Source: Georgenia subflava (lineage in GTDB: Bacteria > Actinomycetota > Actinomycetes > Actinomycetales > Actinomycetaceae). From it: a DNA stretch of 64,000 nucleotides. This document shows positions 10,307 through 62,260 of this stretch, piece after piece (position 1 is the first letter of the stretch; each line of letters starts with the position of its first letter). The position numbers and the translations under genes are program-made. The notes under the pieces were generated by a model. That model was not told the origin of the DNA and ran no database searches. It was given only the letters and a program-made list of their open reading frames with translations. The DNA is taken from contig NZ_VUKD01000001.1 in NCBI RefSeq assembly GCF_009193155.1, positions 248,001 through 312,000 on the forward strand, written 5' to 3'.

Positions 10307-10312
10307 GGCTCC

Positions 10313-10346
10313 GGTCGGTCCGTGCCGGTCCCGGCACGGACCGACC
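10313..10346. terminator. Bidirectional hairpin terminator
   Basis: A perfect 16-bp inverted repeat (arm GGTCGGTCCGTGCCGG) with a two-base loop lies between the converging DUF4127 gene and the LTA-synthase-like gene. There is no T-tract on either strand, as is common in GC-rich actinobacteria. Confidence 0.8.
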
Positions 10347-10391
10347 AGTGGTCGAGGGCAGCTGTCGCAGACGGTGACGTCTCGTGAGAGA

Positions 10392-46556: not shown

Positions 46557-46973
46557 TCAGCCAGCTGGTGGGCCGGGGCGCTCGCCTCTAGTTCGACCAG
46601 CTGTCCGGCCGCCCGAGCGCCGTGGCTCTGGACCTGGCAACAGCACGCGCATCAGCCCCTCGTCGACAAGACGCATGCGGTCGAACGGAAGAACCGCGAC
46701 AAAGCCGAGCAGATCGGCTTTGTCCAGGGTGACGATCTGCGTGACGTTCACGACGGAGTCTCTTGGCAGCCCCGAGCTCGTGGATGGGAGGAAGACATTG
46801 CCGGGCCAGTCGGCCAGTGCAACGTTGGACGTCACCACCGCAACGACGACTGTGCCGATGCGCGACCGCGAATAGTCGTCGGACTGGATCACGAGCACAG
46901 GCCTACGCTTGGCCGGGCGACTTCCCTGCACCGGCCCGAGATCTGCCCAGTAGAGCTCCCCGCGGGTGATCAC
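46557..46973 (-). CDS. mazF: MazF/PemK family mRNA interferase toxin
   Basis: 138 residues. MazF fold: RGELYWADLGPVQGSRPAKRRPVL opens the barrel (shown in part), with VIQSDDYSRS and SGLPRDSVVNVTQIVTLDKADL carrying the family's RNA-cleavage residues. The last 25 residues are a proline/arginine/glycine tail unlike the core. It overlaps the antitoxin gene by four bases in the antitoxin-toxin order. It probably cleaves single-stranded RNA at a short motif when released. Confidence 0.88.
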   Translation of the reverse strand: MITRGELYWADLGPVQGSRPAKRRPVLVIQSDDYSRSRIGTVVVAVVTSNVALADWPGNVFLPSTSSGLPRDSVVNVTQIVTLDKADLLGFVAVLPFDRMRLVDEGLMRVLLPGPEPRRSGGRTAGRTRGERPGPPAG

Positions 46974-47221
46974 CAGTCTTCTTCGCCGTCGCTCTCGAGC
47001 GCAGCGCGGGACCGCGACACCACAAGCTCGGTCAACTCGTCGTCGTGTCCGGTGCGTTCGATCGCCGCATCGAGCATGCTCGTGACGGAGGTGCGGTCGA
47101 GCGACTCCACGAACGCATCCACGGCACGGGCGTACAGCTCCGAGCGCGTGATCCCCAACCGCTTCGCGGCACGCTCGGCACGCTCGAAAGTCTCGTCCGG
47201 CAGGGAGATGGCCGTCTTCAT
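46970..47221 (-). CDS. Ribbon-helix-helix antitoxin of MazF
   Basis: 83 residues from ATG 47221. Ribbon-helix-helix domain at the N-terminus (KTAISLPDETFERAERAAKR, GITRSELYARAV) for DNA binding, and an acidic C-terminal tail (ESDGEEDW) that would wrap the toxin. An in-frame GTG at 47362 opens a longer frame, but that frame runs through the operator palindrome. It neutralises MazF and represses the pair by binding the palindrome at 47230-47246. Confidence 0.85.
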   Translation of the reverse strand: MKTAISLPDETFERAERAAKRLGITRSELYARAVDAFVESLDRTSVTSMLDAAIERTGHDDELTELVVSRSRAALESDGEEDW

Positions 47222-47229
47222 GCCAGCGA

Positions 47230-47246
47230 GTATAACTTGGTTATAC
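47230..47246 (-). promoter_or_regulatory. Autoregulatory operator of the mazF antitoxin pair
   Basis: A perfect 7-3-7 palindrome, GTATAAC-TTG-GTTATAC, lies eight bases before the antitoxin start and overlaps a -10-like TATACT on the minus strand. It is the expected RHH dimer site. Confidence 0.8.
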
Positions 47247-47691
47247 CCAACGTCCCCGAGCCCCATGGCGCTGATGATCGCGCTGCCGCTCAGCCGCGCC
47301 GCGGCTCCTCGTGCTATCAGGTCGTCCACGGCTTCATCAGGCGGAATCTGCTGGGTCCTCACTGCTCTGCAACCTCCGACGGCTCGCGGTACTGGGCGAA
47401 GAAGCCGGCGGCGGCGAGGTCGGCGTCACCAAGCGCCGGGGTCGGCACGGTCCGCGCTGACGACACCGTCGGGCCTCCTCGCTCGCCCCGACCCGCTGTC
47501 GCGACGTGACGGCAACCGTAGGAGCGGAGCCGGCAACGCCGCCGCGCCCATCCCCAGGACCGGAGTGGGCCGCGGCGATCCACAGGAGCACGTCACCACC
47601 GCGGCTCTCCGGACGACCTTGCACCCCCTCGATCACACCTTGGTCTTCTGTGACTTCGGGCACGGGGATCGCCTGCGCGAGACGAGGACCA
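47247..47691. other. Non-coding gap with possible gene remnants
   Basis: About 445 bases between the antitoxin operator and the permease terminator. On the minus strand, two short open frames join by a GTGA overlap at 47359-47362. One ends LGDADLAAAGFFAQYREPSE; the other runs RTQQIPPDEAVDDLIARGAA and resembles the tail of Phd-type antitoxins. Neither has a proper start or length. I read this as debris of an earlier insertion, not as working genes. Confidence 0.4.
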
Positions 47692-47750: not shown

Positions 47751-49223
47751 TCAGATACCGAGCGCCGCCTGGATCGGCCCGAGGGCGAAGTAGACGACGA
47801 ACAGCGCCGCCACCACCCACATGAGCCAGTGCACCTGCTTGGCCCCGCCCTTGCGGGCTGCGGAGAGGATGACGTAGGCGATGAAGCCGGCACCGATCCC
47901 CACGGTGATGGAGTAGGCGAACGGCATGAGGATGATCGTCAGGAACGCCGGGATGGCGATGACGGCGTCGCGCCACGGGATCTCCGTGACCTGCATCATC
48001 ATCAGGAAGCCGACGATGACCAGGGCCGGCGTCGCCGCCTCGTAGGGCACGAAGGCGGCGAGCGGCGAGAGGAACATCGCCAGCAGGAAGGCGATGCCGG
48101 TGACCACCGAGGCCAGACCGGTGCGGGCGCCGTCGCCGACGCCGGTGGCGGACTCGATGTAGCTCGTGTTGGACGAGACGCCGGCGGCGCCACCGGCCGC
48201 GGCGGCGATGGAGTCGACCGCCAGGATGCGGCGGGTGTGGGGCGGGTTGCCCTCGTCGTCGAGCAGCTTCGCCTCGGCGCCGATGGCGACCATCGTCCCC
48301 ATCGTGTCGAAGAAGTCGGCGAGCATGACCGAGAAGATGAGCAGGACCGCGGCGATCCAGCCGATCTTCTCGAAGGCGCCGAAGAGCGAGATCTGCCCGA
48401 TGGTGCCGAAGTCCGGCAGGTTGACCGGGGAGCCGTCGAGGGCCGGGATGGTGAGCTGCCAGCCGCCGGGGTTGTCCTCGCCTGCCAGTCCCAGGCCGGC
48501 GACGAGCTCGACGATCGCCGCCAGGACGGCGGCGACGACGATCCCGATGAGGATGGCGCCGCGGACCTTCTTGACCATGAGGAACGCGATCGTGAACAGC
48601 CCGATGATGAACACCAGTGCCGGCCAGCCGGCCAGAGAGCCGTCGATACCCAGCTGGAGCGGGGTGCCGCCGGGACGCACGATGCCGGCGTTGACAAGGC
48701 CGACGAGCGCGATGAACAGACCGATGCCGACCGAGATGGCGACCTTCAGCGCGTAGGGCACGGCCTTGAAGACGGCCTCGCGCAGACCGGTGAGGACCAG
48801 CACGAGGATCACGATGCCCTCGAGGACGATGAGCCCCATGGCGTCGGCCCACGTCATGCCCGGCAGGCCGACGATGGTGAACGCGAGCAGCGCGTTGATG
48901 CCCATGCCGGCGGCGAGCGCGAGCGGGAAGTTCGCCGCGGCTCCCATGAGGATGGACATCAGCCCGGCGACCAGGGCGGTCGCGGCCGCGATGGCCGGCA
49001 GGTTCGCACCGTCGGTGCCGCCGCCGAGGAAGGCGCCGGTGGAGTCCGGGGTCGAGAGGATCAGGGGGTTGACCACCAGGATGTACGACATCGCGAAGAA
49101 CGTGACGATGCCGCCGCGGACCTCACGGCCGACGGTCGAGCCACGCTCGGTGATGTGGAACGTCCTGTCCAGCCAACCCGTCTGCTGGGCTCTGGGGGGC
49201 GCACTCGGCGCATGAGTACTCAC
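47751..49223 (-). CDS. AzgA-type (NCS2) adenine/guanine/hypoxanthine permease
   Basis: 490 residues from GTG 49223. ATG 49334 would add 37 polar residues and overlap the next promoter, and neither start has a clear ribosome site, so the message may be leaderless. Typical AzgA/GhxP sequence: TAGMGINALLAF-like AAGMGINALLAF, FFDTMGTMVAIG, SSNTSYIESATGVG and GAAANFPLALAAG. These motifs form the purine and proton sites. It imports purine bases by proton symport. It stands alone with its own terminator. Confidence 0.88.
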   Translation of the reverse strand: MSTHAPSAPPRAQQTGWLDRTFHITERGSTVGREVRGGIVTFFAMSYILVVNPLILSTPDSTGAFLGGGTDGANLPAIAAATALVAGLMSILMGAAANFPLALAAGMGINALLAFTIVGLPGMTWADAMGLIVLEGIVILVLVLTGLREAVFKAVPYALKVAISVGIGLFIALVGLVNAGIVRPGGTPLQLGIDGSLAGWPALVFIIGLFTIAFLMVKKVRGAILIGIVVAAVLAAIVELVAGLGLAGEDNPGGWQLTIPALDGSPVNLPDFGTIGQISLFGAFEKIGWIAAVLLIFSVMLADFFDTMGTMVAIGAEAKLLDDEGNPPHTRRILAVDSIAAAAGGAAGVSSNTSYIESATGVGDGARTGLASVVTGIAFLLAMFLSPLAAFVPYEAATPALVIVGFLMMMQVTEIPWRDAVIAIPAFLTIILMPFAYSITVGIGAGFIAYVILSAARKGGAKQVHWLMWVVAALFVVYFALGPIQAALGI

Positions 49224-49349
49224 AAGGGCGGATGATTGCAGATTGCCCGGTCCCGGTGGCGCATTTGACCGACCTGTGGCATGAGCGCCGTGCGTGGTGG
49301 GGATGGCACCTCTCGCCTTGTCAGACGGCCGCATCCGCGATGAAGCCCG

Positions 49350-49388
49350 TTGACAGCGGCGTACACCAACGACATACTCCCGGTATAC
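49350..49388 (+). promoter_or_regulatory. Promoter and candidate GntR site before the TRAP operon
   Basis: TTGACA (49350-49355), 17 bases, CATACT (49373-49378), then ATG at 49424. An imperfect repeat, GTACACC (49361) and GGTATAC (49382), flanks the -10, so the operon's GntR/FCD protein could bind there. Confidence 0.55.
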
Positions 49389-49423
49389 ATCCCGTATCCC
49401 TCGAAGATGAGATCGGTGATCCT

Positions 49424-51427
49424 ATGGCTCGACTAGCCGAATACCGCCAGTTCCTTACGCCGATTGCCGTGATAGCCATCGGCTGGTCCCTGTTCCAGCT
49501 CTACGCCGCCGCCCAGGGCGCTCCGCACGCGATGCTCTTCCGTCCGCTCCACGTGGTGCTCGGGATGGCTCTTGTATTCGCGATCTATCCTGCGCGGAAG
49601 AGCTACCGCAGACGCGTCGACTCCGCCTCGGAGGAAGAGCTTGAGGACGCCCCCGTCGGAAGCCCTGCCCCCCGGTGGCTCACCGGCATGGACGTAGTTC
49701 TCGTGGCGCTCTCGCTCGCTATCGGCGCGTACTACGTACTGAACTCAACTCGCATCTCCGAACGAGTCACCTTCCTGGACGAGGTGACGGTGACGGACCA
49801 GATTGTCGGGCTCTTGCTCATCGTCCTCGTCCTCGAGGCGTGCCGCCGTATCGTCGGACTCAGCCTCTCGATCGTGGCCGTCGTCTTCCTCGCCTACCAG
49901 CTCTGGGGCGACCAGCTCGGCGGCCTGCTGCGCCACCGTGGACTGAGCTTCGACCGGTTCATTGACTTGCAGGCCCTTTCTCCGCAGGGGCTCTTCGGTG
50001 TCCCGGTCGGTGTCTCCGCCGAGTACGTCTTCTACTTCATCCTGTTCGCGGCCTTCCTCGAGGCATCTGGCGGCGGCAAGCTGTTCATTGATCTCGCACT
50101 GGCCGTCACCGGGCGTGCACGAGGTGGCCCGGCCAAGGCAGCGATGGTCGCGTCGGCGCTCATGGGATCAATCAACGGCTCCGCGGTCGCAAACGTCGTC
50201 GGCACCGGCGTATTCACGATCCCGCTCATGAAGCGCACCGGCTACCGACCGCGGTTCGCTGCCGCGGTCGAGGCGATGGCCTCCACCGGCGGCCAAGTCC
50301 TCCCGCCAGTGATGGGCGCTGGCGCATTCATCATGGCGCAGATGATCGGGTGGGACTACCGAGCTGTCGCGCTGGCCGCCCTTGTGCCTGCCCTGCTCTA
50401 CTTTGTCGCCGGGTACTTCATGGTGCACAAGGAGGCGCAGCGCGCCGACCTCAGGCCCGTCGCGCCCGAAGAGCGAACGAGCATGCGCGAGGTCGTCGGC
50501 CGCCTGCACCTGCTCATCCCTCTCGCCTACCTCGTCTACATGATCCTTGCCGGCCGGTCCCTCATGACTGCGGCCTTCCAGGCTCTCGTTGTCGCTGTGG
50601 TGGTCAGCTTCCTCCGGCGCGCCACGTGGCTGACGCCGGCAGCCATCCTGAAGGCGCTGCAGGTCGGCGCACAGCGTTCGGTAAATGTCGCTCTGCCGAC
50701 GGCAGTCGCCGGGGTCATCGTCGGCGTCGTCATCCAGACCAATCTGGGTCTGCGGTTCACCGAGCTCGTCCTCGCCTTGTCCGGCGGGCTCCTGGTTCCG
50801 GCCCTGGTCATCACGATGATCGGTGCAATCGTGCTCGGACTGGGCATGCCGACGACGTCGGCCTACATCATGGGGGCCGTCCTACTCACTCCCCCGCTCA
50901 TCGAGCTCGGCGTCCCAGCGATCGCCGCACACCTGTTCATCTTCTACTTCGCCTGCATGTCCATGCTGACGCCACCGGTCGCTCTTGCTGCTTTCGCCGC
51001 AGCGGGGATCGCCGGCAGTCCCCTGCACCAGACGGGACTCACGGCGTTCAGGATCAGTCTCGCTGCTTACCTCATCCCGTTCGCCTTCGTGCTCTCCCCC
51101 GCTCTCCTTCTACAGGAGGGGCTGCTAGCGGCACTGTGGACAGGCACGACGGCCCTGCTCGGTACATACGCTTTGGCCGCAGCCGTCATCGGCTTCCAAA
51201 GCCGCTCGCTGAAACTTTGGGAGCGCACGTCGTACTTCGCCGTGGCATTGCTTCTCGTCTATCCGGGGGTCGTCAGCGCAGTTGGTGTTGCCGCACTCGC
51301 CGCCCTTGTCCTTACAGCCAAAGTCCGCGGGGACAGCGGGCGGACCGGCGGCCCAGACCTGACCAGCCAGACCCCACCACCAGTCGCCCAACCGCTCAAC
51401 GCGACCTCGGGCAGCAAGGAGCTGTGA
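49424..51427 (+). CDS. TRAP transporter fused 4TM/12TM permease (TAXI type)
   Basis: 667 residues from ATG 49424. Fused small and large TRAP permease: an N-terminal four-helix part (residues about 1-180, with the acidic linker ASEEELEDAPVG) and a DctM-like part from about 190. Key TRAP motifs: ASGGGKLFIDLALAVTG, ANVVGTGVFTIPLMKRTGY, and GLGMPTTSAYIMGAVLLTPP near the C-terminus. TAXI-type systems use a TAXI binding protein, here encoded at 55153. It imports an organic acid with Na+. First gene of the accessory operon; codon use looks less GC-extreme than in surrounding genes. Confidence 0.9.
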   Translation: MARLAEYRQFLTPIAVIAIGWSLFQLYAAAQGAPHAMLFRPLHVVLGMALVFAIYPARKSYRRRVDSASEEELEDAPVGSPAPRWLTGMDVVLVALSLAIGAYYVLNSTRISERVTFLDEVTVTDQIVGLLLIVLVLEACRRIVGLSLSIVAVVFLAYQLWGDQLGGLLRHRGLSFDRFIDLQALSPQGLFGVPVGVSAEYVFYFILFAAFLEASGGGKLFIDLALAVTGRARGGPAKAAMVASALMGSINGSAVANVVGTGVFTIPLMKRTGYRPRFAAAVEAMASTGGQVLPPVMGAGAFIMAQMIGWDYRAVALAALVPALLYFVAGYFMVHKEAQRADLRPVAPEERTSMREVVGRLHLLIPLAYLVYMILAGRSLMTAAFQALVVAVVVSFLRRATWLTPAAILKALQVGAQRSVNVALPTAVAGVIVGVVIQTNLGLRFTELVLALSGGLLVPALVITMIGAIVLGLGMPTTSAYIMGAVLLTPPLIELGVPAIAAHLFIFYFACMSMLTPPVALAAFAAAGIAGSPLHQTGLTAFRISLAAYLIPFAFVLSPALLLQEGLLAALWTGTTALLGTYALAAAVIGFQSRSLKLWERTSYFAVALLLVYPGVVSAVGVAALAALVLTAKVRGDSGRTGGPDLTSQTPPPVAQPLNATSGSKEL

Positions 51428-51429
51428 AC

Positions 51430-52620
51430 ATGACTATCGATTTCTCGAAGCCAGAAGTGGTTGTAGCCGGAGCTGGACCCGTCGGCATGACGACGGCCCT
51501 CATGCTCGCACGCAGTGGAGTGAGCGTCACCGTGCTGGAGGCGGGACCTGACCTGAGCACTGAGTCGCGAGCCTCGACGTTCCACCCGCCGACTCTCGAG
51601 ATGCTCGACGAGCTCGGGCTGGCTGACGACCTGCGGGCACAGGGCATAGACGTTCCGGCATTCCAGCACCGCGACCGCAAGGAGGGACTGATCGCCGAGT
51701 TCGATCTCGGCACACTGGCCGAGGAGACTCGGTTCCCGTTTCGAGTGCAATGCGAGCAGAGCAAGCTGACCCGGATCATCCTCGAGAAGTTGCGCGACCT
51801 CGACAACGTCGATGTGCGCTTCGACGCAACGGTGTCCGACGTGCGCCAAGATGCGGATTCCGTGACCGTCTCTCTCGCCGACGGACGCACCGTCACGAGT
51901 ACCTACCTCGTCGGTGCCGACGGCGCCAGCAGCGCCGTCCGACGTTCGCTGGGTGTCGGGTTCGAAGGTGAGACCTATCCCGAGCGCTACCTGGTCATCT
52001 CGACGACCGAGGACATCAAGGCATGGATGCCTGACATCTCCTACGTCAACTACATCTCCGACCCGAGCGAGTGGGTCGTGCTCCTTCGCACCCCGCAGCA
52101 CTGGCGGGCCATGTTCCCCGTCCGCGAGGGGATGAGTGACGACGACGCGCTTCGCCCTGACAACGTCCAGCGGCTCATGCGCACCATCGGTGAGCGACCC
52201 GGAGGTTGGCCGATCCTCCACACGACCCTCTACCGCGTCCATCAACGGGTCGCCGACTCCTACCGCGTGGGCCGGGTCTTCCTCGCGGGGGATGCCGCAC
52301 ACATCAACAACCCGCTCGGCGGGCTGGGTATGAACAGCGGCATTCACGATGCCTACCTCCTTGCTGACCTTCTGGTACGCCACATCCAGGGACGGATCGA
52401 TGACGCCGGCCTTGACGAGTACGACTCACGGCGTCGCGACGTGAGCAGGCGATACGTCGCGGTCGAGACGGACAAGAACTGGCGCCGGATCCGCGAGCGG
52501 GACGAGGCGCAGCGTCAGCATCACTTCGCGGAACTGCGGGAGATCGCGGCCGACCCGATTACGCACCACGAACACGTCCGCAAGACGTGCATGGTCGCCG
52601 AGCTGGCAGGTGCGCGGTGA
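51430..52620 (+). CDS. FAD-dependent monooxygenase (group A, PHBH-like)
   Basis: 396 residues from ATG 51430, two bases after the permease stop. Rossmann GAGPVG (14-19), the DG motif GADGASSAVR (about 160) and the GD motif RVFLAGDAAHINNPLGGLGMN (in part, about 280) mark a flavoprotein hydroxylase of the 4-hydroxybenzoate hydroxylase class. It uses NAD(P)H and O2 to hydroxylate an activated aromatic or N-heteroaromatic ring; some members (MHPCO) also open the ring. In this operon it probably performs the first step on the imported substrate. Confidence 0.9.
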   Translation: MTIDFSKPEVVVAGAGPVGMTTALMLARSGVSVTVLEAGPDLSTESRASTFHPPTLEMLDELGLADDLRAQGIDVPAFQHRDRKEGLIAEFDLGTLAEETRFPFRVQCEQSKLTRIILEKLRDLDNVDVRFDATVSDVRQDADSVTVSLADGRTVTSTYLVGADGASSAVRRSLGVGFEGETYPERYLVISTTEDIKAWMPDISYVNYISDPSEWVVLLRTPQHWRAMFPVREGMSDDDALRPDNVQRLMRTIGERPGGWPILHTTLYRVHQRVADSYRVGRVFLAGDAAHINNPLGGLGMNSGIHDAYLLADLLVRHIQGRIDDAGLDEYDSRRRDVSRRYVAVETDKNWRRIRERDEAQRQHHFAELREIAADPITHHEHVRKTCMVAELAGAR

Positions 52621-52650
52621 CGTCACCGAACCATGGAGGGGGATCTGGCC

Positions 52651-53268
52651 ATGGGTGTTAGGAGCGATACCTACGAGTGGCTCAAGGGCCATATCGCCAC
52701 ACTGCCGCGAGACAAGGGGACCTTCCTCACCGAGACCGAGGTTGCGCAAGCCGCCGGTGCCTCACGCACGCCGGTCCGCGAGGCACTCATGCGGCTCGAG
52801 TCTGAGGGGCTCATCGAGCGCATCCCGCGCCGGGGTGCGTACGTGCCACCCCTGCCCGACTCCGAGATCCGGGCTGTGATGGAGGCCCGTCAGATGATCG
52901 AGGTCTGGACGGTCGAACAGCTGCTCAGCCGTGGAGCGGACTTCGACCTCGCGGAGGTCGAGAGCCTCCTGGTCCGACAGACTGAGAACTGGTCTGACCC
53001 GGTTACCTTCATCGAACTCGACCGTGACTTCCACTCGCATCTCGTCGCAGCATCCGGCAACGCCGTCGTCAACCAGTTCTACTCCGAGCTGCGAGACCGA
53101 CAACTCCGGATGGGCGTCTACGCCGTCACCGGTGCCGAGCACCGAGCCACCAAGGTGGTCGAGGAACACCGAAGGATTGTCGATGCGATCCGAGCCCGCG
53201 ACGTCGCGGCCGCGCGGAAAGCGACAACAGAACACCTGCTCAACACGCTGGAGGCGATGCTCCGATGA
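52651..53268 (+). CDS. GntR family regulator with FCD domain
   Basis: 205 residues from ATG 52651, with GGAGGGGG spaced about eight bases upstream (ATG 52633 is possible but has no site). Winged helix-turn-helix with FLTETEVAQAAGASRTPVREALMRL, then an FCD effector domain from about residue 70 containing the metal/acid ligands D and H of ELDRDFHSHLV and EEHRRIVDAI. It probably responds to the imported acid and controls the TRAP operon. It overlaps the amidase gene by four bases. Confidence 0.9.
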   Translation: MGVRSDTYEWLKGHIATLPRDKGTFLTETEVAQAAGASRTPVREALMRLESEGLIERIPRRGAYVPPLPDSEIRAVMEARQMIEVWTVEQLLSRGADFDLAEVESLLVRQTENWSDPVTFIELDRDFHSHLVAASGNAVVNQFYSELRDRQLRMGVYAVTGAEHRATKVVEEHRRIVDAIRARDVAAARKATTEHLLNTLEAMLR

Positions 53269-54098
53269 CGCAACCACAAGACTCAGGCCCAATGCGGATC
53301 GGGCTGGTACAGGTCGCCAGCCCGGACGGTGAGTCCCCAAAGGACCGCCGTGCCCGGGTCGCCGACATGATCCGCTCAGCCGAGCCGTGCGACCTCTATG
53401 TCTTGCCGGAGCTGTGGGCCGCCGGCTACTTCTCGTTCGACGAATACATCGCCCGGGCGGAGCCACTGGATGGACCGACCGTCAGAACGCTCGCCGGTGT
53501 TGCTGCCGAGCGGGATGCCTTTCTCCACGTCGGGAGCCTCCTCGAGGACCGAGACCAGGGGCGCGTGAGGAACACGGCCGTCCTCCTCGACCGTAGCGGC
53601 ACACCGGTGTCCAAGTACTCCAAGATCCACGTCTTCGGATACCAATCCGCCGAGTCGCAGCTGCTCGAGCCCGGTGACAAGGTCGAGGTCACACCGACCG
53701 AATACGGCACAGTGGCATCGACGACGTGCTACGACCTGCGGTTCCCGGGGCTCTGGCAGCTCCTGTCCGAGCTCGGCACCGAGATCGCCGTCGTGCCGGC
53801 GGCGTGGCCGGCCGCACGCCTGGCGCACTGGAAGCTCTTCACATCCGCGCGCGCCGTCGAGCACCAGATGTTCGTCATCGCATGCAACGCGGCTGGGACT
53901 CAGCACGGCACGTTGCTCGGCGGTCACAGCCGGGTCGTCGATCCCTGGGGTGAGGTCGTCCTCGAGCTCGGCGCCGACGAGGAGGTCGGAATCTGCGAGA
54001 TCGATCCCGGTCAGGTTTCCGTCGTCAGGCGCGAGTTCCCCGTTCTCGCCGACCGACTGCCGTCGTACCAGATGTCACAGCAGAAGGAGAACGTATGA
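53265..54098 (+). CDS. Carbon-nitrogen hydrolase (nitrilase superfamily amidase)
   Basis: 277 residues. The E-K-C triad of the nitrilase superfamily is visible: E49 in LYVLPELW, K120 in KYSKIHVFGY and C155 in TTCYDLRFPGLW. The glutamate/histidine-rich FGYQSAESQLLEPG loop suggests an amide or carbamoyl substrate rather than a nitrile. It cleaves a C-N bond of an intermediate, giving ammonia. It overlaps the gntR stop and the DUF2848 start by four bases each, so the enzymes are co-translated. Confidence 0.88.
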   Translation: MTQPQDSGPMRIGLVQVASPDGESPKDRRARVADMIRSAEPCDLYVLPELWAAGYFSFDEYIARAEPLDGPTVRTLAGVAAERDAFLHVGSLLEDRDQGRVRNTAVLLDRSGTPVSKYSKIHVFGYQSAESQLLEPGDKVEVTPTEYGTVASTTCYDLRFPGLWQLLSELGTEIAVVPAAWPAARLAHWKLFTSARAVEHQMFVIACNAAGTQHGTLLGGHSRVVDPWGEVVLELGADEEVGICEIDPGQVSVVRREFPVLADRLPSYQMSQQKENV

Positions 54099-54766
54099 AG
54101 CTCGTCGAACTCGACCTCGATACGGTGCGACGCACCCGCGTTGTGGTCGCTGGCTACACCGGTCGGGATGAGGCGCAGGTGCGCCACCACATCGAGGAAC
54201 TCGCCCGCATCGGGGTCGCGCCGCCGGCGAACGTTCCTGAGTTCTATCCCATGCCCGATGGAGCGCTCACCTTCGGTACTGACGTCGACGTAGACGGCGA
54301 CCGAACTTCGGGCGAGGTTGAACCGGTTCTCGTCCGGCTTGGCGGCAAGCTCCATCTCGCGCTCGGGTCGGACCACACCGATCGTGCCCGTGAGGCGGCG
54401 GAAGGCGTGGCTGTGTCGAAGGCCTGCTGCCCCAAACCGCTCGCCCGATACGCACTCGCATGCGACGCAGCGGAGCTCGACGCCGTCTGGGACGGTATCG
54501 AGCTGTCTGGTCTGATCGACGGGGATCCCTACCAAGAGGGCGTAGCCGCGGCCCTCCGTCCCCTGACCCAGATCCTCGCGGCGCTCGACGACCGAGACGG
54601 TACGGCAGGCGAAGACCTTGTGCTTTATGGCGGCACGGTTCCGCTCATCGGCGGTGACTTCCGCTACGGCGACGCTTGGAACTTCTCACTCACCGTGGCG
54701 GAGCACCGCCTCACCCTCGACTACCGCACCCGCGTGCGTGCGACCGAAGGAGCGACGCATGGCTAA
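54095..54766 (+). CDS. DUF2848 family protein
   Basis: 223-residue member of the DUF2848 family. Conserved blocks seen are AGYTGRDEAQVRHHIEELA, TSGEVEPVL, LGSDHTDR and SKACCPKPLAR. The family has a fumarylacetoacetate-hydrolase-like fold and is uncharacterised to my knowledge. It could hydrolyse a C-C or C-N bond in a ring-opened product. Genes for a nitrilase-family enzyme and a cupin overlap it on both sides (4 and 8 bases). Function is unknown. Confidence 0.8.
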   Translation: MKLVELDLDTVRRTRVVVAGYTGRDEAQVRHHIEELARIGVAPPANVPEFYPMPDGALTFGTDVDVDGDRTSGEVEPVLVRLGGKLHLALGSDHTDRAREAAEGVAVSKACCPKPLARYALACDAAELDAVWDGIELSGLIDGDPYQEGVAAALRPLTQILAALDDRDGTAGEDLVLYGGTVPLIGGDFRYGDAWNFSLTVAEHRLTLDYRTRVRATEGATHG

Positions 54767-55151
54767 GGAAGAACTGGAGTTCTTTCCGACCGACACGGTG
54801 AAGTGGACAGCCTGCGAAGGAGCCGTCCCAGAGCTCACCGAGCGAGTTCTCACGTCCACCGGCAAGCCTGGCGTGGTCTCACGGATCCTTAGGTTCGCCC
54901 CCGGGACGGACACCAGTCCCAATGGCGCTCTGCGCCACGACTTCTGGGAGGAGGTCTACATCCTCGAGGGGTCCATGACTGACCTCCGTCTCGGGAAGAC
55001 CTTTACCGCCGGCGACTTCGCGTGCCGGCCCCCCGGCATGGAACACGGCCCTTGGACGACCGACGAGGGATGCCTCACGTTCGAGGTCCGCTACGACAGT
55101 CCGACCGCACCGCAGACGGGCAGTACGCACAACCCAGAGGAGAACAACTGA
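54759..55151 (+). CDS. Cupin domain protein
   Basis: 130 residues from ATG 54759, which overlaps the DUF2848 stop by eight bases. Single cupin barrel with the metal-binding motif H-x-x-x-E-E-x-Y in RHDFWEEVYILEG and the second histidine in PPGMEHGPW (ChrR/dioxygenase-like). It may be a small metal-dependent dioxygenase, an isomerase or a sensor. The tight coupling to catabolic enzymes favours an enzymatic role, but this is inference. Confidence 0.82.
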   Translation: MAKEELEFFPTDTVKWTACEGAVPELTERVLTSTGKPGVVSRILRFAPGTDTSPNGALRHDFWEEVYILEGSMTDLRLGKTFTAGDFACRPPGMEHGPWTTDEGCLTFEVRYDSPTAPQTGSTHNPEENN

Positions 55152-55152
55152 C

Positions 55153-56199
55153 ATGGCTTTGACCAGGACAATGAAGTCGATGGCCGTCGCGACGATCGCG
55201 ACAATGAGCCTCGCACTCGCAGCGTGCAGCGGGTCGAACGCCGATGGCGGCGACAGCGATACGGACGCCACCGGCTCTGGACCCACGGACCTGACGTTCG
55301 CCTCCCTGGACCAGGGCTCTGCCTGGTACAACTACGCCGTCAGCATGGGGCAGACCATCGAGCCCGAACTCGGCGAGGGCTCCGTGGTCGAGGTTCTGAC
55401 CTACGCGGGATCCATCGGAAACCCCGAGCTGGTCTCGACCGGTGAGGCGGACCTCGCCACCTCCTTCAGCGCAGTCACGTCGTGGGCGGTCAACGGCGAG
55501 GAGGGCACGCCGTTCGAGGGCAAGCAGATGGACAACATCCGGGTGCTCGTCAGCGGTCTTGACCAGTACTTCTTCGGGCCGATCACGACAGCGGGTTCAG
55601 GCGTCGAGTCATTGCGCGACGCTATCGAGGGCGAGAAGGGACTCGACCTGGTCAGCCAGCCGCGCGCGTCGCTGGGAGACGCAGGAACCCAGCTGGTCCT
55701 GCGTGCCTACGGCACCTCGGTCGAGGACATCGAGTCGTGGGGCGGGAGCTTCGACCCCACCAGCACCGACGTCGCGACGAATGCGATCCGCGACGGCAAC
55801 GCCGATCTGTGGATCCAGGCGATCACAGCGGGCCACCCCAATATCACCGAGCTCGCCGAGACGGCCGACATCCGGATCCTTGACATCGACGATGAGGCAG
55901 TGGCGGAGCTGGAGTCACTCGGGCTCGAGCCCGCGACGCTGCCCGGTGGCACGTTCCGGGGTCAGGACGACGACGTTCAGTTGCTCGGTTTCACGACAAC
56001 ACTCATCGCGTCCGAGGACATGCCGGAGGATGTGGCGTATGCGATCACCAAGGCTGTCGTGGAGAGCGCCGACCAACTCAAGAGCGCCAACGCAAGCATG
56101 AGTGCGTTCGACCCGGAGGCGGCCTGGCAGACAAAGGGCGGTGTGGAGCTGCACCCGGGCGCTGAGAAGTACTTCACTGAGGCCGGTCTGATGGACTGA
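55153..56199 (+). CDS. TAXI family TRAP transporter solute-binding lipoprotein
   Basis: 348 residues; lipobox LAAC after a short signal peptide. TAXI pattern: LTFASLDQGSAWYNYAVSMGQ and VLTYAGSIGNPELVSTGEADL, followed by the two-lobe body. TAXI proteins bind organic acids and feed the fused TRAP permease (encoded at 49424). It lies at the far end of the catabolic genes, six genes from its permease, an arrangement that supports one operon. A strong hairpin follows. Confidence 0.9.
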   Translation: MALTRTMKSMAVATIATMSLALAACSGSNADGGDSDTDATGSGPTDLTFASLDQGSAWYNYAVSMGQTIEPELGEGSVVEVLTYAGSIGNPELVSTGEADLATSFSAVTSWAVNGEEGTPFEGKQMDNIRVLVSGLDQYFFGPITTAGSGVESLRDAIEGEKGLDLVSQPRASLGDAGTQLVLRAYGTSVEDIESWGGSFDPTSTDVATNAIRDGNADLWIQAITAGHPNITELAETADIRILDIDDEAVAELESLGLEPATLPGGTFRGQDDDVQLLGFTTTLIASEDMPEDVAYAITKAVVESADQLKSANASMSAFDPEAAWQTKGGVELHPGAEKYFTEAGLMD

Positions 56200-56214
56200 C
56201 TCAGTGAGTCGCGC

Positions 56215-56244
56215 GGCCCCGGGTGCATACCGGCACCCGGGGCC
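56215..56244. terminator. Hairpin terminator after the TAXI gene
   Basis: A perfect 12-bp stem (GGCCCCGGGTGC/GCACCCGGGGCC) with a six-base loop starts 15 bases after the TAXI stop. The MFS gene downstream therefore probably has its own promoter or is read through. Confidence 0.82.
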
Positions 56245-56271
56245 ATTGCACGAGATGAGAAGGGAGCGACG

Positions 56272-57417
56272 ATGGGGCACAAGAATGCCGTTGTGGCTGC
56301 ATATGCGACAACTGCCCTCGGTGTCTCGGGCGTCTCGTTGCTCGCTCCCGTACTGCCTGAGCTAGCCGCCAGATATGGCGTTGATGTCGAGGCGATGGCG
56401 CTGTTCCAGACCGCCGTCATGGTTCCGGGAATCCTCACAGCGGCTCTCGCCGGCGCATTGGCTCCGCGGGTCGGCCTCGCCCCGGTGCTCCGTTCCGCAC
56501 TCCTCATCTACGGCTTCGGCGGCATCAGCCTCCTCGTGGTGGATAGCTACCCGCTCGCGCTTCTCCTCCGTCTGGTGCAAGGGGTCGGTGGCGGTGGCCT
56601 GGTCGCGATGTCCTTCCTTCTCATCGCTAGGGCGGGTCCGGGCCAACGGTTGGCCGCCACGGGTCGCAACGCAGCTGTCATTAGCACGATGATGCTGCTG
56701 CAACCTCTGCTCGGATCAAGCCTCGGAGCGATCAGCCCGGTTGCACCCTGTGCCTTCTACGGCCTGGCGATAGTGGCCGCAATGGTCGTCCCCGGACTTG
56801 CGTCCGCTCAGACAGCGCCGCCGGTGCAGCATTACCGGCGCTCCACCCGGATTCCTGGACAGGTCATGTGGGTGCTGATCATGACGGTAGTCCTCAACAT
56901 CTTGCTCTTCGGGTGGTTATTACTGCTGACACCGCTCGTGCTGGACGCTGCCGGGGTCGGCATCAGTGCCCGTGGCTGGACCCTAGCGCTCCAGTCCGGG
57001 CTGGCCACGGTGGTGACTTTGGCCGTTGCACGGTGGCGAGAGGCAGGACGGTTCCGGCTCTTGCTCATCAGTGGCTGGGCCATCGGCGCTTCGATACTGC
57101 TTGGTTCATCGCTCGGACCTTCAGAACTCACGATCCCCCTCCTCATCGCTGCAGGGACGTTCTACGGCGCGGTCAATCCAACACTCGTCTCGTCGCTCTC
57201 TGGTGCAGAGGGCGGCAGGTGGCTCGGGTGGTGGCAAAGCTCTGCGCGTCTCGGCCAGGTGATCGGGCCTGTACTTGCGGGCACCCTGTACGCCGACATC
57301 GGTGGCGGACCGACGCTGGCGATCGGCGGCGTCCTGGCAGCCCTCGTTCTTGCGGTGGCCATCCTCTACAGGCGCCCGCACCATGCTTCTACAAGGCCGA
57401 TGACGCTGGGAAACTGA
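56272..57417 (+). CDS. MFS transporter
   Basis: 381 residues with about eleven or twelve hydrophobic segments; GAEGGRWLGWWQSSARLGQV late in the protein is typical of drug-exporter-like MFS members. No specific subfamily is recognised. The gene follows the TRAP-TAXI operon in the same direction, behind a hairpin. It could export a toxic intermediate or import a related substrate. Codon use resembles the operon before it. Confidence 0.85.
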   Translation: MGHKNAVVAAYATTALGVSGVSLLAPVLPELAARYGVDVEAMALFQTAVMVPGILTAALAGALAPRVGLAPVLRSALLIYGFGGISLLVVDSYPLALLLRLVQGVGGGGLVAMSFLLIARAGPGQRLAATGRNAAVISTMMLLQPLLGSSLGAISPVAPCAFYGLAIVAAMVVPGLASAQTAPPVQHYRRSTRIPGQVMWVLIMTVVLNILLFGWLLLLTPLVLDAAGVGISARGWTLALQSGLATVVTLAVARWREAGRFRLLLISGWAIGASILLGSSLGPSELTIPLLIAAGTFYGAVNPTLVSSLSGAEGGRWLGWWQSSARLGQVIGPVLAGTLYADIGGGPTLAIGGVLAALVLAVAILYRRPHHASTRPMTLGN

Positions 57418-57486
57418 CAACTCCCCCAGATTTCAGGTACGTAACTCAGCACTACGTGAATCATCGGTCCGGATAGCATCACCGGC

Positions 57487-57735
57487 ATGCCCGACGTCGA
57501 TCTCTTCGAGCACGAACCGGACCTGCCTCCGGCGAAGGTCAATGCCATCACCCTGATGGTGACGGGCACCGTGATCTGGATGGTCGCCACCGTGGTCGTC
57601 GCTGTCCTGGGGCTGATCAACTACCTGCCGGACGACCTGCTCGAGGTGTGCTTCGCCGGCCTCGGTCTCGGCCTTGTCGGCATCGGCTGGGGCTACGTGC
57701 ACGAGTACCGGGCGCGCCGTCGGCGGGTTGCCTGA
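57487..57735 (+). CDS. DUF2530 small membrane protein
   Basis: 82 residues. Two hydrophobic segments (LMVTGTVIWMVATVVVAVLG and VCFAGLGLGLVGIGWGYV) flanked by an acidic, proline-rich N-terminus (EHEPDLPPAKVNAI) and an arginine-rich C-terminus (RARRRR). This matches DUF2530, a small actinobacterial membrane protein of unknown function. It is probably a housekeeping gene bordering the accessory island. Confidence 0.8.
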   Translation: MPDVDLFEHEPDLPPAKVNAITLMVTGTVIWMVATVVVAVLGLINYLPDDLLEVCFAGLGLGLVGIGWGYVHEYRARRRRVA

Positions 57736-57775
57736 CGTCGAGCCTCAGGGCAGAGCGAGGCACTCTGGCCATCGC

Positions 57776-57825
57776 GACGGCCCTGTCCGTACTCAGGCCG
57801 GACGGCCCTGCCCGTACTCAGGCTG
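57776..57825. repeat. Two tandem 25-bp repeats
   Basis: Two adjacent 25-base copies (57776-57800 and 57801-57825) differ at two positions. The second copy covers the stop of the minus-strand small gene at 57818, so duplication may have altered or extended its end. Confidence 0.75.
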
Positions 57826-58033
57826 AGTGACGCTCCGCCTTGGAGAGCCTGACGATCCAGTCCGGAGTCTTCCGGCGCAGCCGCTTGTCGACGGTCACCT
57901 GCAGTTTAGCGGCCGACACCTCGCGAGGTGTGACAACGACCTGGCGGACGTTGTTGCCTACGCCGTCGCCGGCTTCCCGCCGGGGCTCAGGCCCTGTCTC
58001 CACGGACATGCCGTCCACCTCCTTCGTCTCCAT
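57818..58033 (-). CDS. Small hypothetical protein
   Basis: 71 residues from ATG 58033, with AGAGGA just upstream. Not recognised. A charged, glycine-rich N-terminus (METKEVDG, EPRREAGDG) is followed by a well-formed helical part, VTPREVSAAKLQVTVDKRLR, ending TPDWIVRLSKAE. The amphipathic helices and codon bias make it look translated. It sits downstream of the response-regulator gene and ends in the 25-bp repeat. Function unknown. Confidence 0.55.
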   Translation of the reverse strand: METKEVDGMSVETGPEPRREAGDGVGNNVRQVVVTPREVSAAKLQVTVDKRLRRKTPDWIVRLSKAERHSA

Positions 58034-58169
58034 TGTCGTCCTCTGCCGCAAGGTGAAGATTGCGACCAGTGCTGCGAAACGGCGACCACGGCGGTGCCCG
58101 CAGGGGCCAAAGCCCTGACCCATTCCACCCATTCGGGAAGGTTCACGACAACCATCGTGCACCAGCAGG

Positions 58170-58846
58170 TCAGAGCTGCGCCTGCCTGCTCGCGTACCTC
58201 CGCTCGGGCCGTCCCACCTCGCCGTACCTCAGCCGCACCTCGGCCCGGCCGGTCTCGGTGAGGTGCTCGAGGTAGCGCCGGGCGCTGACCCGGGAGACCC
58301 GGCGAGCTCGGCGGCCTCGGCGGCCGAGAGGTCGGTCCCGGCATCGTCGAGCACCTGCCCGACGAGGCGGAGGGTCTCCGCACTCAGTCCCTTAGGGAGC
58401 GCGGCGGAGACGAGCTTCGGCGCGGAGAACAACCGGTCCACCTCGGTCTGCTCCGGCGTCGCCCCCGGCGGCACGGCGCGCAGGGTCTGCCGGTAGTGCT
58501 GGAGCCGGTCGTTGAGGTCGGCGAACGTGAACGGCTTCATCAGGTACTGCACCGCTCCCCCACGCACGGCCCGGCGCACCGTCTCCGCCTCCCGGGCGGC
58601 GGTGACGACGATGACGTCCATCTCCGGTGCCGCGGCGCGCATGTCGGCGAGGATCTCGAGCCCGGAGGCCCCGGGCAGGAAGACGTCGAGGAGCACGAGG
58701 TCCGGCTGCAGCCGCCGGGCCTCGTCGACGGCCGTGGACGCGTCGTGCGCGACCCCGACGACCTCGAAGCCCTCGCACCGGCGCACGAACCCCTCGTGGA
58801 TCTTCGCCACCATGTAGTCGTCGTCGACGACGAGCACCCGGATCAC
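58170..58846 (-). pseudogene. CitB/DcuR-type response regulator with frameshift in output domain
   Basis: Starts at GTG 58846, four bases inside the kinase gene. The receiver domain is intact: D8-D9-D10, phosphoacceptor D54 (LLDVFLPG) and K104 (LMKPF). The DNA-binding end is broken. After residue 183 (AAELAG, near 58297) the frame continues as unrelated GSPGSAPGAT and stops at 58229. Read one base over, the expected helix-turn-helix appears (VSRVSARRYLEHL, then TGRAEVRLRYGEVGRPERRY) and runs to a stop at 58170. One G appears to be missing. As sequenced the 205-residue product would lack half of its DNA-binding helix; an error or a real lesion are both possible. Confidence 0.85.
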
Positions 58847-60438
58847 CTCGCCACCTCCGCGGGCGTCTTCGGCAGCTTGGCCGTGAACACGGCACCTCCG
58901 GCATCGTCGTCGTTGCGCACGGTGACCTCGCCACCGCGCCTGCGGCACACGAGCCGGACGAGCGCCAGACCGTATCCGCGTCCACCGGCGCGGGCGGACC
59001 TCTTGGTCGTGTACCCGCTCCGGAACAGCCGCTCGACCGCGGGGACGTCGACGCCCGGGCCGGTGTCGTGCACCTGCACCGTCACGGCCTCCTCGTCCTC
59101 CGTGAGCGTGACCTCGACCCGCGGGTCCGCGCCGCCGGCGACCGCGTCCAGCGCGTTGTCGATCAGGTTGCCGACCACGGTCACGAGGTCGCGGGAGAGC
59201 TCGTCGTCCACGCGGGAGACGCTGGAGGCCTCGTCGACGACGAGGCGCGCCCCGCGCTCGGCGGCCAGGGAGTCCTTGGCGATGAGCAGCGCGGCGACCG
59301 GGAGGTCGGAGATCCGCTCGGTGACCTGCAGGTACAGGCTGTCGCGGTGGTTGCTGACGCCCTCGACGAACCGGACGACCTCCTCGTACTCCTCGAGCTG
59401 CAGCAGCCCGGAGATGGTGTGCAGCTGGTTGCTGAACTCGTGCGTCTGCGCGCGCAGCGTGCCGGTCGTGCGGCGCGAGCTGTCCAGCGCCCGCTCCATC
59501 GCCTGCATCTCGGTCTGGTCGCGCATGGTCGTCACGGAGCCGATGACCGACCCGTGGGAACGGACCGGCATCCTGTTGAGGACGAGCAGCCGCGCGCCGA
59601 CCACGACGAGACGGTCCGGCGCCGCGGCGTCCTCGGTGAGGGCCTCGAGCAGCTCCGGGTCGCAGGTCACCTCGGGCAGCGGCCGGCCGACGGTGTCCGG
59701 CGGCAGACCGAGCAGGCGCCGCGCCGCGTCGTTGAGCAGGGTGACCCGACCGGCGGTGTCGAGGGCGATGACGCCCTCGCGGATCCCGTGGAGCAGCGCC
59801 TCACGGTGCTCGACGAGCCCGGCGATCTCGGTGGGCTCCAGGCCGAGCGTCTGTCGCTTGATCCGGCGCGAGAGCATCGTCGAGCCGACGACGCCGACGC
59901 TCGTCGCCAGCCCGACGTAGACCAGCAGGCCCGGCCCCGCGGCGCCGAGCCGCTCGCTCAGCGAGGGCAGGAGCCGGCCGATCCGAGCCGTTCCGATGAC
60001 CTGGCCCTCGTCGTCGAGCACGGGGACCTCGGCGACGGCGGCACCGTGGACCGAGCCCGCCCAGGACCGCCCCTGGGTGTCACCCGGGCCGTCGTCCGAC
60101 AGCTCGGTGCCCACCGCGGCCGGGTCGGAGGAGGTGACGACGGTGCGGTCGGGGTGCATGAGGGTCACGGTCGTCGCACCGGAGACGGTGCGGACGGTCT
60201 CGCCCACGGCCGCCAGCGGCGAGCTCCCGCCGGGCACGGCGGTCGGCAGGAGCGCCCGCACGGTGGGGTTGGCCGCCAGGGTCTCCGCCGCGGACAGCGA
60301 CCGGCGGCTCTCCGCGCGGGCCAGCCGCTCCCCGGTCTCGGAGAAGGAGAGCCCGCCGACGACGACCACGACGAGGAGGACGACGAGGAGCTGGAGGAGC
60401 AGCAGCTGGCCGGCAACGGTCATCCGTCTCCTGCGCAC
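58843..60438 (-). CDS. CitA/DcuS-type sensor histidine kinase
   Basis: 531 residues from GTG 60438, preceded by AAGGAGG; ATG 60423 is the alternative. First membrane helix (LLLLQLLVVLLVVVVVGG), extracytoplasmic Cache-type sensor (about 35-175), second helix (LVYVGLATSVGVVG), then a PAS domain (about 215-320). The phosphorylation site is in the family motif THEFSNQLHTI, and the ATP-binding domain has NLIDNALDA and DTGPGV. Such kinases sense citrate or C4-dicarboxylates. It is divergent from a second TctCBA operon, which it likely regulates through the response regulator encoded next. Confidence 0.9.
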   Translation of the reverse strand: MRRRRMTVAGQLLLLQLLVVLLVVVVVGGLSFSETGERLARAESRRSLSAAETLAANPTVRALLPTAVPGGSSPLAAVGETVRTVSGATTVTLMHPDRTVVTSSDPAAVGTELSDDGPGDTQGRSWAGSVHGAAVAEVPVLDDEGQVIGTARIGRLLPSLSERLGAAGPGLLVYVGLATSVGVVGSTMLSRRIKRQTLGLEPTEIAGLVEHREALLHGIREGVIALDTAGRVTLLNDAARRLLGLPPDTVGRPLPEVTCDPELLEALTEDAAAPDRLVVVGARLLVLNRMPVRSHGSVIGSVTTMRDQTEMQAMERALDSSRRTTGTLRAQTHEFSNQLHTISGLLQLEEYEEVVRFVEGVSNHRDSLYLQVTERISDLPVAALLIAKDSLAAERGARLVVDEASSVSRVDDELSRDLVTVVGNLIDNALDAVAGGADPRVEVTLTEDEEAVTVQVHDTGPGVDVPAVERLFRSGYTTKRSARAGGRGYGLALVRLVCRRRGGEVTVRNDDDAGGAVFTAKLPKTPAEVAR

Positions 60439-60593
60439 ACCGCCTCCTTCGTCGTCGAGCCTCTCGCCGGCCTTCGTCTGCCATCGGGCGTCGGGCCGTC
60501 GCCGAGCATCCGTCGCCCGGGCGTCGGGCCGTCGTCGGACCGCGGGTGTCATGCTCCCACCGCCGGGCCGCTGATGGGGGCCGGCTCCGCGTG

Positions 60594-60647
60594 ACCACAA
60601 CGACCGCAACGTCCGCAGCGAACTCAACGACCGCTGCGACCGCAACG
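60594..60647. repeat. Six 9-bp tandem repeats between kinase and tctC
   Basis: Six head-to-tail 9-base units match ACCGCAACG with up to four changes: ACCACAACG, ACCGCAACG, TCCGCAGCG, AACTCAACG, ACCGCTGCG, ACCGCAACG. They lie in the 293-base gap between the divergent kinase and tctC genes and could be a response-regulator binding array; the rest of the gap shows no clear feature. Confidence 0.7.
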
Positions 60648-60731
60648 GATCTCGGCGTCGCGAGCGCCGCCAGGATGGACGCGTCCGGTTCCGCGACCAT
60701 GTTCGCCAACCCTCGAGGAAGAGGTCAGACG

Positions 60732-61757: not shown

Positions 61758-62260
61758 GCACGCAGGCCACCGTCGCCCGCCCCGGGCGCTCCGAGCTGGG
61801 CGTCGCCGCCCTGCTCGGGGCGCTCGGCGCGCTCATCCTCATCGACGCGATCGGCCTGCAAGCCCCGTACTCCCAGGCCGACCCGCTCGGCCCTCGCGCG
61901 ATGCCGTTCATCGTCTCCGGGCTGCTGCTCGTGTGCGCGGTGGTCCTCGCCGTCGACGTCCTGCGGGGCGGGCGCGGCGAGGCCGAGGGCGGCGAGGACG
62001 TCGACCTCACCCAGCCCACCGACTGGCGCACGGTCGTGCCGCTCGTCGCGGTCTTCGCCGCCAACATCGTCCTGGTCGACACCCTGGGCTGGGTCCTCTC
62101 CGGCGCCCTGCTGTTCTACGGCTCGGTCATCGCCCTGGGCTCGCGCCACTACGTGCGCGACCTGATCATCTCCGTGGCCATCGCGCTCGCGAGCTTCTAC
62201 GGGTTCTACCTCGGCCTGGGCATCCTCCTGCCGGCCGGTCTCCTCGAGGGGGTGCTGTAG
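61754..62260 (+). CDS. tctB: Tripartite tricarboxylate transporter small subunit TctB (second system)
   Basis: 168 residues from ATG 61754, overlapping the tctC stop by four bases. Four hydrophobic segments with the TctB/DUF1468 pattern, including ADPLGPRAMPFIVSGLLLV and an acidic, glycine-rich loop (GEAEGGEDVD). Partner of TctA and TctC in the same operon. Confidence 0.88.
   Translation: MSTQATVARPGRSELGVAALLGALGALILIDAIGLQAPYSQADPLGPRAMPFIVSGLLLVCAVVLAVDVLRGGRGEAEGGEDVDLTQPTDWRTVVPLVAVFAANIVLVDTLGWVLSGALLFYGSVIALGSRHYVRDLIISVAIALASFYGFYLGLGILLPAGLLEGVL

Follow-up and report, generated by a model that had tools for sequence, protein, structure and literature searches.

In the hmf pathway for furoate and 5-hydroxymethylfurfural (HMF), a five-membered heteroaromatic acid is hydroxylated beside the heteroatom and opened to a 2-oxoglutarate derivative. 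The pathway of pyrrole-2-carboxylate ends in 2-oxoglutarate via 2-oxoglutaramate and would need an omega-amidase. The Rhodococcus pyrrole-2-carboxylate monooxygenase system carries the number EC 1.14.13.130 (Becker 1997, as listed in the accessible sections of PMC6165268), and 4-hydroxypyridine is the substrate of the kpi cluster of Arthrobacter IN13 (PMC7356986, accessible sections). Here, we describe an operon in a 64-kb window of Georgenia subflava DNA, that is, the whole stretch that was analyzed, to whose positions all coordinates refer. It combines a TRAP-TAXI transporter with a group A flavin adenine dinucleotide (FAD) monooxygenase (FMO), a GntR/FCD regulator, a nitrilase-superfamily amidase (NIT), a DUF2848 protein and a small cupin (CUP). 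The operon is a variant of a conserved catabolic operon family, of which no description was found in the literature searched. Our preferred reading, which is tentative and somewhat short of an even chance, is that this probably acquired operon, with its own repressor-type regulator, serves the breakdown of a small N-heteroaromatic acid, for which a five-membered carboxylate of pyrrole type is the likeliest candidate.

Gene content and the conserved NIT-DUF2848-CUP core

Eight open frames occupy one strand between 49424 and 57417, most of them overlapping or almost abutting (Table 1). In gene order, from the TRAP through the MFS gene, the intergenic gaps are 2, 30, -4, -4, -8, 1 and 72 bp; the 30 bp between FMO and GntR depend on the GntR start chosen. 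The run from the TRAP to the TAXI gene is a genuine operon. The fused permease and the TAXI protein both score above the cut-offs of their models (TIGR02123 and TIGR02122) and form a TRAP-TAXI pair, and an adjacent, co-directional set of CN-hydrolase, PF11010 and Cupin_7 genes is present in the window. A preliminary description of this DNA had named the TRAP, TAXI, FMO, GntR/FCD, amidase, DUF2848 and cupin genes, and profile searches found every one of them. The E-K-C residues that it had read as intact in the amidase are E49 (LPELW), K120 (YSKIH) and C155 (TTCYD). The spacing of 2-8 bases or overlap that it had given for nearly all junctions fails for FMO-GntR and TAXI-MFS.

The conservation of the gene set was assessed by scanning genome contigs with DUF2848. 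At least 554 relatives were confirmed, and the 80 loci that best matched the window's DUF2848 were kept, which are not a random sample; neighbors were counted within 8 kb of DUF2848. CUP is found in 49/80 of these loci, NIT in 42/80 and GntR in 37/80. An HpaB-type oxygenase is present in 39/80, a flavin reductase in 37/80 and FMO in 4/80, while an AS-family amidase occurs in 13/80 and a "putative hydro-lyase" (NF003969) in 17/80. Ten of the 80 have none of seven markers (NIT, AS amidase, CUP, HpaB, reductase, FMO and hydro-lyase). NIT, CUP, HpaB and flavin reductase stand together in 36 loci; the co-directional order NIT-DUF2848-HpaB-CUP-reductase is kept in 31 of these, and in 15 GntR lies immediately ahead of NIT on the same strand. 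The FMO loci combine NIT, CUP and FMO (L039, L051 and L059) or FMO, CUP and AS amidase (L114, Roseomonas), and HpaB is found in none of the four. A molybdenum (Mo) hydroxylase lies directly near DUF2848 in 4/80 loci (L096, L099, L105 and L110). In L142, from another genus of the same family, FMO-GntR-NIT-DUF2848-CUP follow the window's order with 70, 61, 59, 52 and 71% identity, respectively. The HpaB-bearing relatives include Rhodococcus and Arthrobacter, in which the oxygenase/reductase pair comes after NIT and DUF2848. A sample of the class gave PF11010 in 14/296 genomes, the own genome counted, and of 13 neighborhoods from this sample, nine have NIT close by, nine GntR and four CUP.

NIT-DUF2848-CUP looks like a core that is served by exchangeable ring hydroxylases. 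The TRAP-TAXI pair is a local add-on to this core because, near DUF2848 in the 80 best loci, TAXI occurs in 0/80 and the fused TRAP in 2/80. The preliminary description had named absence of the set from other genomes as evidence against itself. This outcome was not seen: without the transporter, the set recurs in numerous actinobacteria as well as some Bacillota and Proteobacteria. DUF2848, which it had singled out as the uncharacterized member, is indeed a recurrent partner of NIT and CUP.

Further arrangements of the core genes were observed. A second NIT-DUF2848-CUP set (63, 49 and 70% identical) lies about 36 kb downstream in the own genome (G000:C3, ~331.9-340 kb; L004:11910-19711), near NMT1-like proteins, a MarR gene and CoA-transferase-like and thiolase-like genes; an FMO paralogue (42-43%) is located on the opposite strand at a distance of about 5 kb. 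In Jiangella muralis, DUF2848 and an HpaB-type oxygenase form a single unbroken frame (L063, ~10001-12097; also L027). Long open frames had suggested a general DUF2848-HpaB fusion, which was rejected, as the frame is free of stops in only 1/32 loci in which HpaB directly follows DUF2848 (L063). In L110, L105 and L099, the Mo-hydroxylase adjoins DUF2848, and some of these loci also have genes for UbiD, Amidohydro_2 or a PaaK-like ligase; this would be a different way to feed the core. Alphaproteobacterial DUF2848 genes stand beside the putative hydro-lyase gene in L033, L034, L074, L100 and others, together with TRAP genes (L033, L034), an AS amidase (L034, L074, L100) or hydantoinase B/oxoprolinase (L033).

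Table 1. Features of the operon and its surroundings, with positions in the 64-kb window
Feature	Position	Strand	Evidence
Fused TRAP transporter permease	49424..51427	+	TIGR02123 4e-184, 613.7 bits (cut-off 320.65); PF06808
Group A FAD monooxygenase (FMO)	51430..52620	+	PF01494 2e-68; GxGxxG, DG and GD motifs kept
GntR/FCD regulator	52651..53268	+	PF07729, PF00392
Nitrilase-superfamily amidase (NIT), Nit2/omega-amidase-like, CN-hydrolase	53265..54098	+	PF00795 4e-47; E49-K120-C155 intact
DUF2848 protein, candidate FAH-superfamily enzyme	54095..54766	+	PF11010 6e-47, 160.3 bits (cut-off 23.4)
Small cupin (CUP), Cupin_7	54759..55151	+	PF12973 7e-11
TAXI-type solute-binding protein	55153..56199	+	TIGR02122 3e-48, 164.5 bits (cut-off 84.35); PF16868
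MFS transporter, operon membership uncertain	56272..57417	+	PF07690 7e-21; 72-bp gap with hairpin before it
Sigma-70-like promoter TTGACA-17-CATACT ahead of TRAP gene	49350..49378	+	10/12 matches
GTATAC palindrome, candidate operator for the operon-encoded GntR	49383..49388		Single copy in 64 kb, directly past the -10 box
Perfect 12-bp hairpin without T tract, possible end of main transcript	56215..56244	+	3' of TAXI gene
Probably acquired segment	49249..58190		blastn against L141: flanks align 85% and 79% to congeneric genome, interior unmatched

Proposed pathway, substrate and rival routes

The FMO has only distant matches among the PDB sequences searched. The best is PnpA, which we take to be a nitrophenol monooxygenase (6e-64, 219.8 bits, 357 residues), and the second is HspB, the 6-hydroxy-3-succinoylpyridine 3-monooxygenase (2.5e-49). 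NIT matched best with 2w1v (nitrilase homolog 2, Nit2; 2e-33, 119 bits, 256 residues) and also with yeast YLR351C. A close match of the FMO or the amidase to characterized, unrelated enzymes, which the preliminary description had named as evidence against itself, was not seen among these sequences. In CUP, His60, Glu64, Glu65 and His96 are invariant across 36 sequences, and the alignment reads a single His where classical cupin motif 1 carries two.

The assignment of DUF2848 draws on its conserved residues and on profile comparisons. The GEVEP and GSDHTDR motifs and Lys109 are conserved, with E74, E76, D93 and K109 invariant in 70 sequences. A single-sequence search of the PDB sequences gave no match at E 1. 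A profile of 11 sequences gave 12 matches at E <=10, and three of the top four, at E 0.057-0.43, are FAH-family-like (3v77, 1wzo and 1nkq, the last presumably so). When the 70 sequences were compared with a profile of 23 PF01557 proteins from related genomes, 142 columns were aligned with P 0.0016 and an hhalign probability of 16%, and seven control families gave P 0.06-0.61. This alignment, at a probability of just 16%, pairs GEVEP with GELAV (E-x-E) and GSDHTD with NDVTA (ND); the FAH metal site consists of E-x-E plus a following D. The comparison is weakly suggestive of an FAH fold. DUF2848 is not named, and no activity of it is described, in the open-licence literature searched.

Gene content and order, the likely acquisition, the conserved core with its exchangeable hydroxylases, the palindrome and the association of FMO with red-chlorophyll-catabolite reductase are supported by the sequence analyses, whereas the substrate, every reaction, the role of CUP and binding and repression by GntR are inferences. 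The acid would be imported by TAXI and the fused TRAP permease, perhaps also by the MFS transporter. The FMO would hydroxylate the ring carbon beside the nitrogen, and the resulting hydroxypyrrole would tautomerize to an unsaturated lactam. DUF2848, as an FAH-type enzyme that depends on a metal, would hydrate and open this lactam, with CUP possibly helping as a tautomerase or hydratase; the product from pyrrole-2-carboxylate would be 2-oxoglutaramate. NIT, which is omega-amidase-like, would then free ammonia and yield 2-oxoglutarate or an analogue. The logic of import, ring hydroxylation and C-N cleavage had already been put forward in the preliminary description, and gene content and the conserved core support a likely catabolic operon. 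A more far-reaching joint proposal, possible if doubtful, is that DUF2848 is the lactam-hydrating ring opener of aerobic pyrrole-acid catabolism; that the core contributes genes to the pathway behind pyrrole-2-carboxylate monooxygenase, fed by a group A FMO, HpaB plus reductase or a molybdenum hydroxylase, which are unrelated to one another; and that the sister FMOs beside bilin-reductase-like genes mark a wider, undescribed route for linear tetrapyrroles.

Four contextual lines, none of them conclusive, suggest a five-membered N-heteroaromatic acid. In the Rhodococcus loci L041 and L057, the masses of the encoded HpaB and reductase are 53.3 and 18.8 kDa; the components of the pyrrole-2-carboxylate monooxygenase of 1997 are reportedly of about these sizes. 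This Rhodococcus enzyme is counted among the group D (HpaB-type) enzymes (accessible sections of PMC6165268). A UbiD decarboxylase is found in 5/80 of the best DUF2848 loci, and the Mo-hydroxylase near DUF2848 in 4/80 belongs to the same line. For the UbiD of L072, the best PDB matches are 6h6v/6h6x, which we take to be the furan-dicarboxylate decarboxylase HmfF, and chain residue 296, presumably H297 of HmfF, is paired with a His in the L072 protein. In the accessible sections of PMC7976604, HmfF is mentioned as a UbiD decarboxylase and H297 is described as key to its furan specificity. By this alignment, the L072 UbiD appears to support a five-membered ring, not nitrogen specifically. Another line comes from NF003969, which we assume to be DUF1445; hydro-lyases of this type use 5-oxoproline as substrate, which is another lactam with a five-membered ring.

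The remaining line concerns red-chlorophyll-catabolite (RCC) reductase, taken as PF06405. FMO relatives, defined by E 1e-60 or better, occur in 26/394 genomes of the class and RCC reductase in 14/394. All 14 are among the 26 FMO-positive genomes, with a Fisher value of 5e-19 that ignores shared ancestry, the 14 genomes representing four families, and this lessens what the association can tell about the pathway. The two genes lie about 2-6 kb apart in 6/14 (G524, G532, G593, G241, G574 and G055) and farther apart or on separate contigs in the other eight. In the FMO tree, after L142, the RCC-reductase-adjacent rows are nearest to the window, with several forks weakly supported. In four of those six genomes, an FMO relative, a PF06405 protein, a CN-hydrolase and aldehyde dehydrogenases are found together (L205, L206, L209 and L212), and L205, L206 and L209 also hold a protein from a group for which the PDB profile search placed phytochromobilin synthase first (E 0.03). 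These four stretches possibly serve bacterial linear-tetrapyrrole catabolism.

Several findings weigh against the pyrrole-type reading. No gene of the set has a close characterized relative among the PDB sequences searched, and the top NCBIfam model of NIT is deaminated-glutathione amidase at 116.8 bits, below the cut-off of 355. The FAH match of DUF2848 is weak on both measures given above. Only 3/13 class-sample loci have any of the hydroxylases searched for, namely, HpaB in L027, an FMO fragment in L030 and a Mo-hydroxylase kilobases off in L023; therefore, the core also exists without an obvious hydroxylase alongside. Most hydroxylase-bearing loci among the best 80 use HpaB, and FMO relatives often lack DUF2848: of the 26 genomes, the own genome (G000) and G131 alone are on the PF11010 list, which comes from the 296-genome sample and does not cover all 26. 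For this reason, the window's FMO may act on another ring. RCC reductase is absent from the own genome, which also counts against a bilin-derived substrate.

In the breakdown of such a substrate, for example, a hematinic-acid-like pyrrolinone or maleimide, the FMO would oxidize one pyrrolic ring within a tetrapyrrole fragment, and NIT would open the amide that results. The four stretches shared by FMO relatives, PF06405 genes and a CN-hydrolase, some with the phytochromobilin-synthase-like protein, are in its favor; DUF2848 and this cupin were not found in them, and we regard the route as unlikely. About equally improbable is a pyridine route of the 4-hydroxypyridine kind, in which the FMO would give a dihydroxypyridine, the cupin would act as a ring-cleaving dioxygenase, NIT would remove formamide or ammonia and DUF2848 would perform the final FAH-type C-C hydrolysis. 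HspB as the second PDB match of the FMO fits this route. However, CUP with its one His departs from classical motif 1, and a six-membered ring leaves both the HmfF-like UbiD of L072 and the RCC-reductase association unexplained. The Arthrobacter IN13 pathway does provide a precedent, with a monooxygenase, a ring opener, a deformylase, the FAH-family KpiD and a FadR-family regulator in its gene table (accessible sections of PMC7356986).

The preliminary description had left open an N-heteroaromatic compound or an aromatic amide. The context favors the former, and within it a five-membered pyrrole type over a pyridine. PnpA as the best PDB match of the FMO would suit an aromatic amide or an anthranilate-type benzene acid, but the operon proteins match no classical ring-cleaving dioxygenase family in Pfam/NCBIfam, the cupin possibly excepted, and an omega-amidase-like NIT is more in keeping with a nitrogen in the ring than with an amide on a side chain. 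Even though group D includes 2-aminobenzoate 3-monooxygenase (accessible sections of PMC6165268), we consider such a substrate quite improbable. That the genes are chance neighbors or a decayed remnant has hardly any probability: conservation of the core does not extend to the transporter genes, but all eight genes are uninterrupted frames, for the most part overlapping or all but abutting, and gene order and the candidate operator are kept across genera.

The pyridoxine, nicotinate and maleamate routes were rejected, as the hydrolases that we assume for them are absent among the operon proteins. The skatole cluster was also set aside; cupin, amidase and nitrilase are not mentioned in the main text of PMC13101512. 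No cluster with this gene set came up in the nicotine/ketoglutaramate literature, going by the listings of that literature, and a text search of the open-licence literature for a cluster of HpaB, nitrilase, cupin and GntR gave no paper. The window's gene set was likewise found nowhere described in this literature, judged mostly from listings.

Regulation and origin of the segment

The promoter in Table 1 was the single promoter-like match in a scan of 49200-57900; shuffled sequence averages 0.7 matches, so the match by itself is no evidence. The palindrome beside it has a wider distribution. In 19/19 loci with a GntR of 45% identity or more, GTATAC precedes the first gene of the operon by no more than 330 bp, and no other palindromic hexamer occurs in more than 10/19 of them. 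In the 371,721 bp of these loci, 21/27 copies sit upstream of the operon, compared with 0.45 expected from density; the loci counted are those on which the motif was discovered. In L142, the sole copy is upstream of FMO. The own genome's second cluster, with a MarR gene in place of GntR, has no copy. Both the shared discovery set and the patchy occurrence of GTATAC where the GntR is more distant, with no copy in 8 of 23 such NIT loci, tell against the proposed scheme. Going by this distribution, GntR may bind GTATAC and repress the promoter there until the acid or its product binds.

Downstream of the TAXI gene, RNA folding of 56200-56271 gave -39.1 kcal/mol (z -4.8), and the terminator scan did not report the hairpin at 56215-56244. 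As the 72-bp gap contains this perfect 12-bp hairpin, the MFS gene may be transcribed as a separate unit. Past the MFS gene, a 23-bp repeat is present in two copies (96% alike, 25 bp spacing) at 57776-57823.

Horizontal acquisition of the operon segment is likely. The preliminary description had suspected it from codon use, and the data agree: GC is about 0.64-0.67 across 49-58 kb compared with 0.67-0.75 on each side, mean GC at third codon positions (GC3) is 0.79 in the eight operon genes compared with 0.92 in eight hand-chosen flanking genes, and PF11010 is missing from the eight other genomes that represent the genus (0/8) but present in 3/213 of the family, the own genome counted. Of the genes on the flanks, the permease is found in 9/9 genomes of the genus, and the sensor kinase matches strongly in 6/9, the own genome counted in both. 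The interval 49249-58190 has no match in the G401 stretch. A clean empty insertion site was rejected, since G401 carries 13 kb of other genes between the same flanks; the site is therefore a variable spot. Loss in the relatives could also account for the pattern. In the surroundings, 58229-63889 holds a response regulator and a sensor kinase beside genes that by eye resemble those of tripartite tricarboxylate transporters, with the kinase region strong in 5/8 congeners. On the minus strand, at 46557-47362, two small overlapping genes resemble, by eye, a PemK/MazF-type toxin and its antitoxin.

Comparison with known systems

The operon suggests a first function for the DUF2848 enzyme family. 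By tying DUF2848 to a recurrent neighborhood, a candidate operator and a definite proposed reaction, it makes the family directly testable. It may also supply genes for EC 1.14.13.130, a number mentioned in just one paper of the open-licence literature searched. The association of FMO with RCC reductase indicates where bacterial tetrapyrrole breakdown could be sought.

The likeness to the Rhodococcus EC 1.14.13.130 system is drawn at the level of enzyme class. As far as the accessible sections describe it, that system pairs a group D oxygenase with a flavin reductase, as do the Rhodococcus and Arthrobacter relatives of the operon. The window itself does not have this two-component group D monooxygenase, which would be expected for pyrrole-2-carboxylate degradation, but a single-component group A FMO (PF01494), with HpaB and reductase only in the relatives. 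The actinobacterial RCC-reductase/FMO clusters (L205, L206 and L209) are alike in having an FMO 52-54% identical to that of the window and a CN-hydrolase in the same stretch, but two aldehyde dehydrogenases and bilin-reductase-like proteins replace DUF2848 and the cupin.

In the accessible sections of PMC7356986, the kpi cluster shares with the window a monooxygenase, a C-N hydrolase, an FAH-type protein and a FadR/GntR-type regulator. Its pfam00561 alpha/beta hydrolase, Amidohydro_1 ring opener (pfam01979) and pfam01557 protein are matched by none of the window's operon proteins; CN-hydrolase, cupin and PF11010 are present instead. The hmf pathway has the same hydroxylate-then-open logic as the one proposed here, and DUF2848 is accompanied by UbiD in L072 and by UbiD, a Mo-hydroxylase and a CoA ligase in L110. 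The window operon has no UbiD, Mo-hydroxylase or CoA ligase, and nitrogen in place of oxygen in the ring requires an amidase.

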